Below, in pieces: positions 1 to 10,476 of a stretch of 13,851 nucleotides of DNA (within the stretch, counting starts at the first letter, position 1; each line of letters opens with the position of its first letter). Origin of the DNA: Flavisolibacter sp. (GTDB taxonomy: Bacteria; Bacteroidota; Bacteroidia; Chitinophagales; Chitinophagaceae); contig JAICTW010000008.1 in the NCBI GenBank assembly GCA_025936195.1, positions 1-13,851 on the forward strand, written 5' to 3'. Under the pieces are notes generated by a model, which saw only the letters and a list, made by a program, of their open reading frames with translations, was not told the origin of the DNA and searched no databases. The position numbers were made by a program, and so were the translations under genes.

Positions 1-1769
1 CGGCTTTGAGAAGAGATCACGGTAAACCCTTCCACATAATCAAATTCACCGTCGGGCTGGGGATCGTTCTGATTGTTCAAACGGTCCAGGTTCACCAATT
101 GTAATATTGGAGTTCCTTCTGCAACCGGTGGTTGACCTGTTGTATTGGTAACAGATGGCGGCAAATATTTTTTGGTGCCCGTACTCGGCTCTTCATAATA
201 AACATCCAGTTTAAAATCCTGCCGTTCCAATTGTCCAAAGCCTACACTGTACACGTTCTTCATCATTAAGTCCCAGATCGGAAGATTGGGACGTTGGGAT
301 GTTGCTTTTAATAATTTCAGAAATAGAACCTTGGTAGTATTGCCGCTGCTGTCCGGTGGTATGTCCTGTGAAAATTCACCCACCTGGAAAATTCTCCCAT
401 TATAAGTGTATTGATAAGCCACAGCTAAAACTTCATCGGGCTGCAGGGGTTGGTTGAGTGAAATGAAACCGATTTGCGGATTGAAATAAAAATCGGTTGG
501 CTGTAATTTTCTTGCGAACGTTTTTTCAAACTCCTGCACCGGCTGCATTCCGTTCAATCCGTTCAAATAGGTCTGAACCTGCGTTGAGTTTCTTGCAATG
601 GGTCCGGCATTAACCAAAGTTTGATAAAGTGAGTTTGACGTATTGCTTGGCAAAGTATCGCCATTATTAAACCAATTGGAATTAAAAGGGTTGTATTCAC
701 CCAAATCCATAAGACCAACAACATCCCTGGTATCGGTGGTGGCGCCGGTTCGATTGGTTACCCATGCTTCCACCCGCAGAATTTGAAAGTTGGAATGCAC
801 CACAGGCAACTGGCTCATGGCTTTGTTGTAATCTTTCCTGAACTTTTGCGCCAGTAAAAAGTGGCGGTTCTCTTCGTATTCGTCGGCCCTGATATCAAAG
901 GACTGGCTGGACGCACCACCTTGTACGCCCAGCGATTGCCTTTGTGAACGCTGATTAGCCAAAGCAGCCGTTACAAATAACTTTCCGAACTGCAACTGGG
1001 TTTTTACGCCAAACAACGATTGAGCACCGGGGATCAATGTTCCTTTGGAAACAAAGTTTACCGTTCCCATTTGGAATTGCTTCAATATCTCATCATCCTT
1101 TCCGTGATAGTCCAGCTTCAATTGATTCTCGTAATCGAAATTGGCTAGTGTATTGTAATTAATGGGAAGCCTGATCTTATCACCAATAATAGCATCCACC
1201 TGGAACTGGGCATTAATATCGAAATCAAGTCCGCCTGTATTTCTTGCTCTTTAGGGCAGAACGGGATTTTTAATTTTCTGTCCCTGGTAACCGGCGGTAA
1301 TATCTACATAACCTGTCGGCTTTATCTCCACCTTTCCATTGCCGGTAATGCGGTTCACCCAGTCCTTATTGAAATCGAATTTTGGTTTATAGCTCCTCCG
1401 GTTAAGGTCTGAAAGGAGCCTGGCTCTTTGACGGAAATAATCCACTTCGTCCTTGTGGCCCTGGAGCTTTAAAAATTCTTCTCGTGAAAGGGCAGATGGA
1501 ACACGATAGTATTTGTCGCCAACTTTTTCAACAATGTAATATTGTTTGGTTATGGGATCGTATTCGATTGTCCGTTTTATAATGTTGGTATCGCTAAGGT
1601 CAAAACTATTGCGGTTTGGGTACAGGTAAGGATCACCATGCCGGTCGTGCAAAGGATGAGAAGTATCAGCTTTATTTTGAAACGGGGATGCGTCAGCCTT
1701 CATAAATAAGGCGGAAAGGACGCAGGTAGCAATGAGCGTATAGAGCCTATAGGTAAATTTTGCAGCCAA
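1..1769 (-). pseudogene. sprA: sprA, type IX secretion translocon protein, 5' part, interrupted by an in-frame TAA
   Basis: SprA (Sov in Porphyromonas) is the giant outer-membrane barrel, about 2400 residues, that forms the type IX secretion channel; it is also needed for gliding. The first 172 codons give a signal peptide (hydrophobic LYTLIATCVLSALF, likely cut after ADA) and the typical SprA start (IEYDPITKQYYIVEKVGDKYYR, split here only by wording; then KVEIKPTGYVDITAGYQGQ). A TAA follows at 1251-1253. The same frame then stays open to the window edge (416 codons, checked triplet by triplet) and continues as SprA: RARNTGGLDFDINAQFQ, KLDYHGKDDEIL, SLFGVKTQLQFGKL, RADEYEENRHFLL, NDPQPDGEFDYVEGFTV. 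The TAA stands where homologues usually carry Glu (LPERAR), so one G-to-T change (GAA to TAA) explains it. The start is TTG at 1769; a TGA lies four codons upstream in frame and no ATG precedes the signal peptide. It begins 31 nt after ruvA, an arrangement common in Bacteroidota. The 3' end is outside the window. Confidence 0.9.
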
Positions 1770-1800: not shown

Positions 1801-2388
1801 TTAAAGGATCTGCAATGCTTTCTTGATCAACAATTCCACCCCTATTCCGGGATCTTGCTCCAGTACCTTCTGAATGGCTTTGTCTGCAGCTTGCCTGTTG
1901 ATACCCAGTGCAATCAGTGCATTTAACGCATCGGACTGTAAAGTATTGCCTTTCCACGTCGAAATATTTACAGTGGAATCTACTGGCTGTTTGGCTAATT
2001 TATCGCGAAGTTCTACTACTATGCGTTCGGCGGTTTTGCGTCCAATTCCTTTAATGCTTTCCAGCACTTTCACATTGCCCTGGACGATGGCCCTGCTCAG
2101 TTCATCAGGCTTCATGTACGAAAGCATGACACGAGCTGTATTGGCGCCGATCCCCGAAATACCGATCAGTTGCAGGAACATTTCTTTTTCTGCCATGTCA
2201 AAGAAACCAAAAAGAAGATGGGCATCCTCGCGAACAATGAGATGGGTTTGAAGAATTCCTTCTTCGAGATCCTGAATTTTAGAATAGGTGTTCAAACTTA
2301 TTTGCACTTCATATCCAACACCATTTACATCTACAAAAACATAGGATGGCGTTTTATGAACAAACCCGCCTTTAAGGAATGCAATCAT
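1801..2388 (-). CDS. ruvA: Holliday junction DNA helicase subunit RuvA
   Basis: RuvA binds four-way DNA junctions as a tetramer and recruits the RuvB motor for branch migration in recombinational repair. The 195 residues match the usual family length. Residues 1-64 form the OB-fold domain (MIAFLKGGFVHKTPSYVFVDVNGVGYEV). Residues 65-140 hold two helix-hairpin-helix motifs (LIGISGIGANTARVML and LESIKGIGRKTAERIVVEL). Residues 148-195 are the flexible RuvB-binding third domain (SDALNALIALGINRQAADKAI). The ATG at 2388 gives the standard family N-terminus. A promoter-like box ends only 5 nt before the ATG, so the message may be leaderless. sprA follows 31 nt downstream on the same strand, probably co-transcribed. 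Confidence 0.97.
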   Translation of the reverse strand: MIAFLKGGFVHKTPSYVFVDVNGVGYEVQISLNTYSKIQDLEEGILQTHLIVREDAHLLFGFFDMAEKEMFLQLIGISGIGANTARVMLSYMKPDELSRAIVQGNVKVLESIKGIGRKTAERIVVELRDKLAKQPVDSTVNISTWKGNTLQSDALNALIALGINRQAADKAIQKVLEQDPGIGVELLIKKALQIL

Positions 2389-7362: not shown

Positions 7363-8241
7363 TTAAAAAACGGTGGGACAGCCATAGCGTTTTTTCTTTC
7401 CGGCAGGACTGTTGTAAACCCTTTCCCTCTGATTTTTGTCAGGAAGGAAGAAAGTCAAATGAATACCACTGAAATAATAATAGTCTTTGTATTTGGGACT
7501 TCCTCTTGTAATTCCTTTTTGCGGATAAACAGGATCGCCTTCAGGCAATTCATCTTCACGGTAAGAAAGATCAACCGCTTCCTGTCCCTTTGCCGTTAGC
7601 AGGTCATTGGGATCCGCATAATTGCCGCTTACATCATCTAAATAATCCGTGAACAATTTTCGTAATCCAATTTCAAGTGCTATGCGCATATTCGGACTGA
7701 TGGCGTATTTTATGCCTCCGCCAAAAGGGAGTGCCAATTGCGTCAGGGAATAAGGCTTTTGAGGATAACCGCTTAGGCCTTCACCCTCGGTACTTAACGG
7801 TTGCAAATACACTTTCTGGTTTTGCTGATCGAATGTGTATGGATTGAAATGATAAACGGCCAATCCGCCAAACAGGTAAGGCGACCAGCGTCTTACATTC
7901 ATGCTGAAAGTACTGAACTCGCCAACTACACTGAATTCGGTAATGTGCGATTGAAAACTAAGATTGCGAAGACGCAAATCTTCCTGTGTGTTGAGACTGT
8001 CTGCGCCGGCTATTTTCCCATACGTAAATCCTGCTCTGAGGTTAATGCGGGGAGAAAGCTGGTATCCGGCTGTTAATCCAATGGCAACTCCGGAATTCCG
8101 GTAAGGCTTCTCGTTGATATCGCCAACATAATTAGAAATTCCACCAAACACACCGATCTGCACCTGGCTTTTGGCCAAAATGGCAAAGGATAAAAACAAA
8201 AACAGCGGAAGAACTTTTCTCATCTGACGAATTTGTTCCAT
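7363..8241 (-). CDS. DUF6089-type outer-membrane beta-barrel protein
   Basis: A 292-residue secreted protein with a Sec signal peptide: the hydrophobic core LPLFLFLSFAILA is followed by KSQ with likely cleavage before VQIGVFGG. The rest alternates in barrel style: QIGVFGGISNYVGDIN, SGVAIGLTAGYQLSPRINLRA, SPYLFGGLAVYHFNP, LALPFGGGIKYAISPN, MRIALEIGLRKLFTDYLDDVS and YYYFSGIHLTFFLP near the end. NYVGDIN, TDYLDDVSG.Y and the terminal KKKRYGCP fit the Bacteroidota family I know as DUF6089, whose relatives include PorG of the type IX secretion system; a PorG role here is not shown. The ATG at 8241 is annotated, but Met7 (8223) gives a better signal-peptide n-region (MRKVLPL) and a normal distance to the -7 box. 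ubiD follows after 38 nt. Confidence 0.75.
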   Translation of the reverse strand: MEQIRQMRKVLPLFLFLSFAILAKSQVQIGVFGGISNYVGDINEKPYRNSGVAIGLTAGYQLSPRINLRAGFTYGKIAGADSLNTQEDLRLRNLSFQSHITEFSVVGEFSTFSMNVRRWSPYLFGGLAVYHFNPYTFDQQNQKVYLQPLSTEGEGLSGYPQKPYSLTQLALPFGGGIKYAISPNMRIALEIGLRKLFTDYLDDVSGNYADPNDLLTAKGQEAVDLSYREDELPEGDPVYPQKGITRGSPKYKDYYYFSGIHLTFFLPDKNQRERVYNSPAGKKKRYGCPTVF

Positions 8242-8256: not shown

Positions 8257-8424
8257 AGGCCGATTTATTGCGTTGCTTACTGCAAAATGAATGAAACTTA
8301 TTAATAACTGATATTATTGATAAAGAAATTCGGATAAGAATTGGATTGCTTCAATTTTCCCGTTTACATAAAATCGCTCGAAAGCAAAATCGAATTCTCT
8401 ATTTTAGTGCAAAATCAATTTTAC

Positions 8425-10476
8425 ATGCGTATTCTTTTTTTTAGTACTGCACTGGCGACGCTTGTTGCCGGCTGCAATAACAGTTCTATGGTTAAGAATT
8501 CTGAAGATTCTGCAATCAACAAAAAAGATGTTTTGGCTAAAAACATGGATTCCTCTGCAAGTCCTTCACAGGATTTTTATTTATATGCCAACGGAGGCTG
8601 GATCAAAAACAATCCTATTCCTGCCGAATACGGAAGCTGGGGCATCTGGAATGAAGTGATTGATGAAAACCTCAAACGCCTGCGCATCATTAGCGAAAAA
8701 GCGGATTCCGCAAAAGCAGCGCAGGGAACTGCACAGCAAAAGATCGGCGATTTTTGGCTAACGGCAATGGATAGTGCCAAAATTGAACAACAAGGCTTAT
8801 CGCCATTGCAACCTTATCTTGACAAGATCAATTCCATTACTGACGTCAATTCTTTGGTGGCAACCGTAGCCGAATTAAAAACCATCGGTTCTTCCACTTT
8901 GTTCCGTGATTATGCAACACAGGACGATAAGAAGAGCGATGTCATGATCTATAAATTATCACAAGGCGGAATTGGTTTGCCCGAAAGAGAATATTATTTC
9001 CGCAATGATTCCGCTACGGTGAACATTCGCAATGAATATGTAAAATACATCACGAAGATTTTGACCTTGTCGGGTGAAGACAGTACGAAAGCCGGAGCCT
9101 CTGCAAAAAATATTCTGGCATTGGAAACCAAGCTGGCGCAGAACTCACGCAAGCTGGCCGACCTGCGTGACCCGTATAAGAACTACAATAAAATGGCGAT
9201 TACCGATCTGCCGAAACTTTCTTCCAACATCAACTGGACAAATTATTTGAATACTACAGGAGTGAAGAACATTGATTCGGTGATTGTGGGCCAGCCGGAA
9301 TTTTTTAAAGCGCTGAACACCATTTTACAATCCACTCCAATTGATGTTTGGAAAGCCGATCTGAAGTTTAATCTCATTTCTGATTTTGCCGGCGCCTTAC
9401 CAGAGCAATACGGCATTGCTGCATTTAACTTTTCAAAATTATTAAGTGGTGCGAAGGAAAGAAGTCCGAGATGGAAACGTGCCATTCGCCAGGAAGAAAA
9501 TTCAATAGGAGAATTATTGGGACAATTGTATGTAAAAGAATATTTCAGCGAGAAAGCAAAGGAACGTTATTCCAATTTGGTGGAAGCCATTCGCAGCGCC
9601 TTGCACGATCGCATCAGCAGGTTAACCTGGATGAGCGATAGCACCAAACAAAAGGCGTATGTGAAGTTAGCCGCTATGAAAAAGAAAGTTGGCTATCCGG
9701 ATAAATGGAAAGATTTTTCTGCCATGCAGATCGGAAGAGAAAGCTATGTTCAGAATTTGATCAACGCCAACAACTGGTGGCATAATTATAACATGAACAA
9801 ATTAGGCAAGCCGGTTGACCGTGATGAATGGGATATGACGCCACAAACCTATAATGCGTATTACAATCCATCCAACAACGAGATTGTTTTGCCTGCAGGC
9901 ATTTTTACAGTTCCGGGTTACAGAGATGAAGAGTTAGATGATGCAACAGTTTATGGTTATGCTGGAGCGTCTACGATTGGTCATGAGATCACACATGGAT
10001 TTGATGATGAAGGAAGGCAGTTTGATGAGAAAGGAAATTTAAAAAGCTGGTGGACCAAAAAAGACGAAGAGGAATTTAATAAAAGAGCACAGGTGATGGT
10101 GAAACAGTTTGATGCTTACGAACCCATCAAAGGTTATCATATAAATGGCAAGGCAACACTGGGTGAAAACATTGCCGATCTTGGCGGTGTTTTATTGGGA
10201 ATAGAAGCTTTTAAAAAAACGGAGCAATACAAGAAAGGAGAGAAAACAGCAGGCCTCACTCCTATGCAACGCTTTTTTATGGGCTATGCCTTAGGATGGG
10301 TAGGCAGTGAAACCGATGCTGCTTTAAGAAGCCAGTTGTTGCGTGATGTGCATTCTCCGGCTAAATACAGAGTGAACGGGCCTTTTGTGGACGTGGATGA
10401 TTTTTATCCAACGTTCAATATTCAACCCGGAACAACGATGTATAGAGCGGATAGTTTGAGAGTGAGGATTTGGTAG
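8425..10476 (+). CDS. pepO: M13 (neprilysin/PepO) family metallopeptidase, lipoprotein
   Basis: A zinc endopeptidase that cuts oligopeptides in the periplasm or at the cell surface. From ATG 8425 the 683-residue protein starts MRILFFSTALATLVAGCNN: a lipoprotein signal with lipobox LVAGC and Cys17 as the lipidated residue. The frame is open upstream to a TTG at 8341, but that would add 28 residues in front of the signal, so 8425 is preferred. The N-terminal M13 domain runs from about 45 (PSQDFYLYANGGWIKNNPIP) to 400. The peptidase domain has NAYYNPSNNEIVLPAGI (477-493), the zinc motif HEITH (520-524) with catalytic Glu521, and the third ligand in ENIADLGG (581-588). C-terminal FMGYALGWVGSE, VHSPAKYRVNGP and the final Trp are family features. 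It is divergent from the DUF6089 gene. A weak box TATTTTAG (8400-8407) lies 17 nt before the ATG. Confidence 0.93.
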   Translation: MRILFFSTALATLVAGCNNSSMVKNSEDSAINKKDVLAKNMDSSASPSQDFYLYANGGWIKNNPIPAEYGSWGIWNEVIDENLKRLRIISEKADSAKAAQGTAQQKIGDFWLTAMDSAKIEQQGLSPLQPYLDKINSITDVNSLVATVAELKTIGSSTLFRDYATQDDKKSDVMIYKLSQGGIGLPEREYYFRNDSATVNIRNEYVKYITKILTLSGEDSTKAGASAKNILALETKLAQNSRKLADLRDPYKNYNKMAITDLPKLSSNINWTNYLNTTGVKNIDSVIVGQPEFFKALNTILQSTPIDVWKADLKFNLISDFAGALPEQYGIAAFNFSKLLSGAKERSPRWKRAIRQEENSIGELLGQLYVKEYFSEKAKERYSNLVEAIRSALHDRISRLTWMSDSTKQKAYVKLAAMKKKVGYPDKWKDFSAMQIGRESYVQNLINANNWWHNYNMNKLGKPVDRDEWDMTPQTYNAYYNPSNNEIVLPAGIFTVPGYRDEELDDATVYGYAGASTIGHEITHGFDDEGRQFDEKGNLKSWWTKKDEEEFNKRAQVMVKQFDAYEPIKGYHINGKATLGENIADLGGVLLGIEAFKKTEQYKKGEKTAGLTPMQRFFMGYALGWVGSETDAALRSQLLRDVHSPAKYRVNGPFVDVDDFYPTFNIQPGTTMYRADSLRVRIW

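Follow-up and report, generated by a model that had tools for sequence, protein, structure and literature searches.

In Flavobacterium johnsoniae, SprA has been described as the major translocon protein of the type IX secretion system (T9SS) (PMC9606717, in the excerpt available). Within the SprA/Sov family (TIGR04189; structures 6h3i and 6h3j), full length is taken as about 2,300–2,600 residues, and intact relatives mostly count 2,380–2,500 codons. Stop codons within sprA are already known: in the part available of a study on Flavobacterium columnare exposed to phage, they occupy three rows of Table 2, within one replicate, all of them marked as resistant (PMC9233685). Literature searches for sprA nonsense mutations together with type IX secretion returned no match, as did those for premature stop codons as sequencing errors or pseudogenes in metagenome-assembled genomes.

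Here we describe an sprA gene cut by a single nonsense codon in a contig of Flavisolibacter sp. (JAICTW010000008.1), whose 13,851 nucleotides were analysed as a whole and are referred to below as the window. The feature is most likely ordinary and calls for no new mechanism, being either a base error or a very recent loss-of-function mutation of an ordinary kind.

An sprA frame with one internal stop

Translated on the minus strand, positions 3–1769 of the window yield a single stop, a TAA at 1251–1253 that takes the place of codon 173, the frame being open for 172 codons upstream of it and for 416 codons downstream, up to the contig edge; the initial annotation had read the interruption in the same way. 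The contig runs out after 589 sprA codons, so that roughly the first quarter of the gene, and no more, is present. The 5′ part (1254–1769, minus strand), whose 172 codons open at a TTG, matches the NCBIfam Sov/SprA profile TIGR04189 over profile positions 3–122 with 62.1 bits, and the continuation (3–1250, minus strand), 416 codons long and running off the contig end, matches it over positions 125–530 with 502.4 bits (E 3e-150). The whole-protein cut-off of this profile is 200 bits, under which the 5′ piece alone falls and which the continuation exceeds. Furthermore, the continuation is matched by Pfam PF14349 (SprA_N) and by the F. johnsoniae SprA structures 6h3i/6h3j (E 3.1e-75). The two profile matches lie in register and place the frame in the SprA/Sov translocon family, the continuous frame of an intact SprA being broken here at the TAA.

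Both flanks had been recognised beforehand as SprA sequence with no indel between them, and this holds: a tblastn search with the 589-codon stretch, the stop being written as X, runs unbroken through the site against G400, the closest of 18 genomes of the genus of Flavisolibacter nicotianae. Since family matches lie on both sides of the stop in a frame of 589 codons, a random open reading frame effect is excluded. The N-terminus of the 5′ part is signal-peptide-like by eye, and the alignment with the SprA of G400 begins at residue 1 of the window frame, where that genome has a Leu codon too.

After the stop, the first possible start is a GTG at 1197–1199, followed by an ATG at 1068–1070. The latter had been put forward as the next in-frame ATG, giving a product devoid of signal peptide; the ATG is there and no signal peptide follows it by eye, although the GTG, after which none is apparent either, comes earlier. 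Both starts sit inside conserved sequence. That sprA has been split into two working proteins, for which the conservation of both halves could be invoked, is extremely unlikely in view of the placement of these starts, and no relative is split at the column among the 79 listed genome loci, 125 proteins and 31 whole-genome loci described below. A caveat comes from two predicted proteins (P0159 and P0171, on contigs of 50,764 and 202,109 bases) whose sequences start precisely with MPERAR, two residues ahead of the column; immediately upstream of this motif their frames may be broken, or their starts mis-assigned.

What relatives carry at the stop column

The relatives compared at this column comprise the 80 genome loci listed among 590 confirmed matches, one of which (L057) falls short of the site, so that 79 cover it; 158 SprA-like proteins, 38 from one search and the best 120 of 1,209 from another, 125 of which cover the site; and 31 whole-genome loci, which overlap in part with the 80 loci and in which some genomes occur twice. 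Glutamate, the residue initially proposed to have been replaced, stands at the column in all 79 covering loci (71 GAA, 8 GAG) and in G400, as well as in 121 of the 125 proteins (V, K, Q and L occur once each, in proteins below 54% identity) and in 29 of the 31 whole-genome loci (with T and Q in two loci below 50% identity). No stop is found at this column in the 79 listed loci, the 125 proteins or the 31 whole-genome loci. A 100-residue stretch around the site matches 380 of the 396 genomes of the order, with no stop among the matches listed. The best named loci among the 80 listed reach 75% identity, Flavisolibacter nicotianae being the first, and identity between G400 and the window is 90% along the 416 residues that follow the stop and 85% when the whole stretch is aligned. 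The organism is thus probably a relative of Flavisolibacter (Chitinophagaceae), a lineage that is environmental.

These comparisons bear directly on the idea that full-length SprA is still made through readthrough or suppression of the stop. The strong purifying selection on the downstream frame described below would be given by readthrough as well, but the stop is not conserved, being kept by none of the relatives, as recoding would have it. This codon context is not known as a readthrough signal. The options listed in the initial annotation (recent mutation, error or readthrough) stand as a list; readthrough is disfavoured among them and very unlikely, its support being the open frame itself. 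The same open frame is what could be adduced for the idea that this organism decodes TAA as an amino acid, but of the 11 complete frames tabulated 8 end in TAA, including the interrupted sprA frame, and the family matches over most other genes of the window contain no internal stop, making reassignment vanishingly improbable.

Several assemblies of relatives show peculiarities at or around sprA. Two SprA pieces that span residues 23–217 (P0005) and 234–533 (P0213) of the frame in the window each come with a contig of 123,247 bases, and may be parts of a single sprA that is interrupted in a close relative. A locus titled as a Streptomyces griseus MAG (L044, CALPIT020000021.1) looks mislabelled, because its sprA is Chitinophagaceae-like, and two different sprA contigs (L061 and L067) are present in one Ferruginibacter MAG (LF-bin-269), either as a mixed bin or as a paralogue. 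In G400, a contig end (L104 7814–8956) folds back, carrying SprA residues ~1200–1577 of the reference on the opposite strand directly after 11–1208, and this fold-back inside sprA looks like an assembly artefact.

Constraint on the frame

Signs of pseudogene decay, that is, more frameshifts, stops or changes of conserved residues, were sought in the 589-codon stretch at the 203 columns that are at least 90% conserved in the 79 listed loci, and none appears other than the stop. The window departs at 7 of the 203 columns, at the stop and at six others, all six of which are common to G400; the stop is its one private departure, and G400 has two of its own. The absence of any other decay, as initially claimed, is therefore borne out at these columns. 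A cluster of damage was considered at V170, three codons before the stop, which looked like a second lesion given that all 79 listed loci have T; it was ruled out by G400 and by the fragments P0002, P0005, P0198 and P0277, which have V too with an intact Glu.

Selection strongly constrains the frame on either side of the stop. The dN/dS ratio between the window and G400 is 0.12 before the stop and 0.034 after it, with values of 0.043 for ruvA and 0.028 for fabH in the same pair, figures that are only rough because dS is near saturation. As there is no private change besides the stop, a loss of constraint, if it took place, would be limited to at most about 1% of the branch that separates the window from its split with G400; this rough estimate takes each branch to have accumulated roughly 0.8 synonymous changes per site after that split. 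A knockout with no trace of relaxed selection is therefore either very young or not there.

Broken and duplicated sprA genes in other assemblies

When the first 586 residues of the G400 SprA were compared with 147 genomes of the family, 141 matched, some of them partly, and an internal stop was found in one only (G130), a TAG at another conserved Glu (residue 296 of the query); its contig contains an N gap. Several of the 141 matches are open frames far shorter than the gene, and six were viewed (G069, G132, G140, G045, G032 and G097). N gaps stand where the frame ends in G132, and the contig ends soon past the match in G140 and G045. In G069 (L111 3297–3339), the frame changes near residue 960 of the reference in a stretch with no N; this frameshift may be a real gene loss, or else a base error. 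The whole-gene profile matches 382 of 394 family genomes, 375 of them above the cut-off, and among the matches listed internal stops are present in G390 only, where two of them separate the aligned pieces and N are scattered through the assembly; a frameshift was rejected in this case, both pieces being in the same frame. Altogether, broken sprA frames in public assemblies are uncommon but not unique, and at least one lies on a near-complete contig.

Several fragments of SprA are also predicted on contigs whose length far exceeds that of the gene; examples among the best 120 of 1,209 proteins are P0202 (644 residues, longest contig of 4,694,285 bases) and P0236 (534 residues, contig of 1,085,816 bases). 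In turn, two full-length copies of sprA are present in G115, about 10 kb apart (C1:203329–205032 and 214054–215724), and in G008 (on C1 and C3). A redundant second sprA was considered for the genus and set aside, each of its 18 genomes having one match to the 416-residue query; the second whole-family profile match in G001 is weak, with 18 bits, below the cut-off. A backup copy in this organism is unlikely.

Neighbouring genes and type IX context

An intact ruvA (1801–2388, minus strand; TIGR00084, profile positions 1–202 of 202) lies next to sprA, as it does in G400; among the matches listed, relatives of this RuvA reach up to 94% identity. Further along, porG, a gene of type IX secretion, has an intact frame (7363–8241, minus strand; NF052316, 141.1 bits against a cut-off of 130), and its product aligns with the G400 homologue over residues 2–292, with identical C-terminal residues. 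The frame of an M13 peptidase (8341–10476) opens at a TTG; since the corresponding upstream stretch of G400 contains a stop, translation probably begins instead at the ATG of MRILFF.

The initial annotation had advised looking at other type IX genes and cargo genes for decay. Besides the intact porG of the window, matches to the T9SS C-terminal domain number from 30 to 69 per genome in five related genomes, G400 having 30, and GldM is present in four of the five. GldM was not found in G400, where the PorV-family match is partial and below the cut-off. This miss may be a real absence; it was not taken as a loss of the system, because the contig numbers of this assembly reach C718 and it contains those 30 cargo-domain matches. 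The abolition of gliding, also predicted initially, cannot be claimed, since no gliding is documented here for this lineage, the genes seen being those of type IX secretion alone (PorG, GldM).

Origin of the stop codon

We consider it about evenly balanced whether the stop is a one-base consensus error in a singleton contig. In that case, the cell's own sprA codon would most likely be intact at this position, and the assembled letters would misreport the cell. The contig is probably of metagenomic origin, and the 172-residue product is alone in its protein cluster, its single source contig measuring 13,851 bases, the length of the window. That sprA frames are broken in other draft sequence too (G390, G130) speaks for an error; against it, the broken sprA of G069 lies on a contig of 4,671,108 bases, such breaks thus not being confined to poor drafts. 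The contig is not visibly error-rich, since no frameshift was noticed in its ten other complete reading frames, among which ruvA, fabH, ubiD, porG and M13 alone were aligned to a relative. No structural RNA, tRNA or repeat of at least 20 bases was reported in the window. Of the 238 ways in which a nonsense codon could arise in the G400 stretch, 36 belong to the class of the substitution that turns the Glu codon of relatives into the stop; the same class is known, according to the part of the source available, as an artefact of library oxidation, and it does not discriminate error from mutation.

A real and very recent nonsense mutation inactivating SprA and type IX export, perhaps in a clonal or phage-selected variant, is a tentative reading that we hold at somewhat less than an even chance. 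One substitution suffices for a null allele, the stop codons of phage-exposed F. columnare isolates set a precedent in the part of that report available (PMC9233685), no backup copy is expected, and the lone stop of G130 at another conserved Glu (1 of the 141 matching genomes) and the frameshift of G069 would be comparable events. However, with no other private change at conserved columns, the null allele must be extremely young and yet be the one that was assembled; it is known from one contig and from no second genome, and the loss of sprA is rare, judging by the 382 family genomes that match the profile. A more specific version, in which a wild Chitinophagaceae strain has just shut off its whole type IX system through the sprA stop, escaping phage or predator, and was caught before decay, is improbable; if true, the phage-selected sprA mutants obtained in culture would have a natural counterpart in an uncultured strain.

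Because no other private change is found and a knockout allele would have to be the assembled one, we lean slightly, by a small margin, towards consensus error and away from a real mutation of very recent date. On a singleton contig, one isolated nonsense codon within a gene of about 7 kb is not to be taken as biology without reads. If it were real, the export of cargo carrying the C-terminal domain should stop, and the case would mean that one point mutation can end type IX secretion in nature, in a variant abundant enough to assemble, with a bearing on phage pressure on Bacteroidota.

Comparison with known systems

Set against the SprA/Sov translocon, the locus shows the same family in register on both flanks and the same adjoining ruvA as G400, but its frame is cut after 172 codons, within a contig that holds about the first quarter of the gene. 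Among related genomes, G130 likewise has a Glu codon turned into a stop in an otherwise open sprA frame, but at another position, as a TAG, and on a contig with an N gap, whereas in G069 sprA is interrupted by a change of frame and not by a nonsense codon. As far as the available part of that report goes (PMC9233685), phage-exposed F. columnare shares with the window a stop codon within sprA; those cases are sequenced isolates with a measured phenotype, whereas the stop of the window is known from the letters of one contig.
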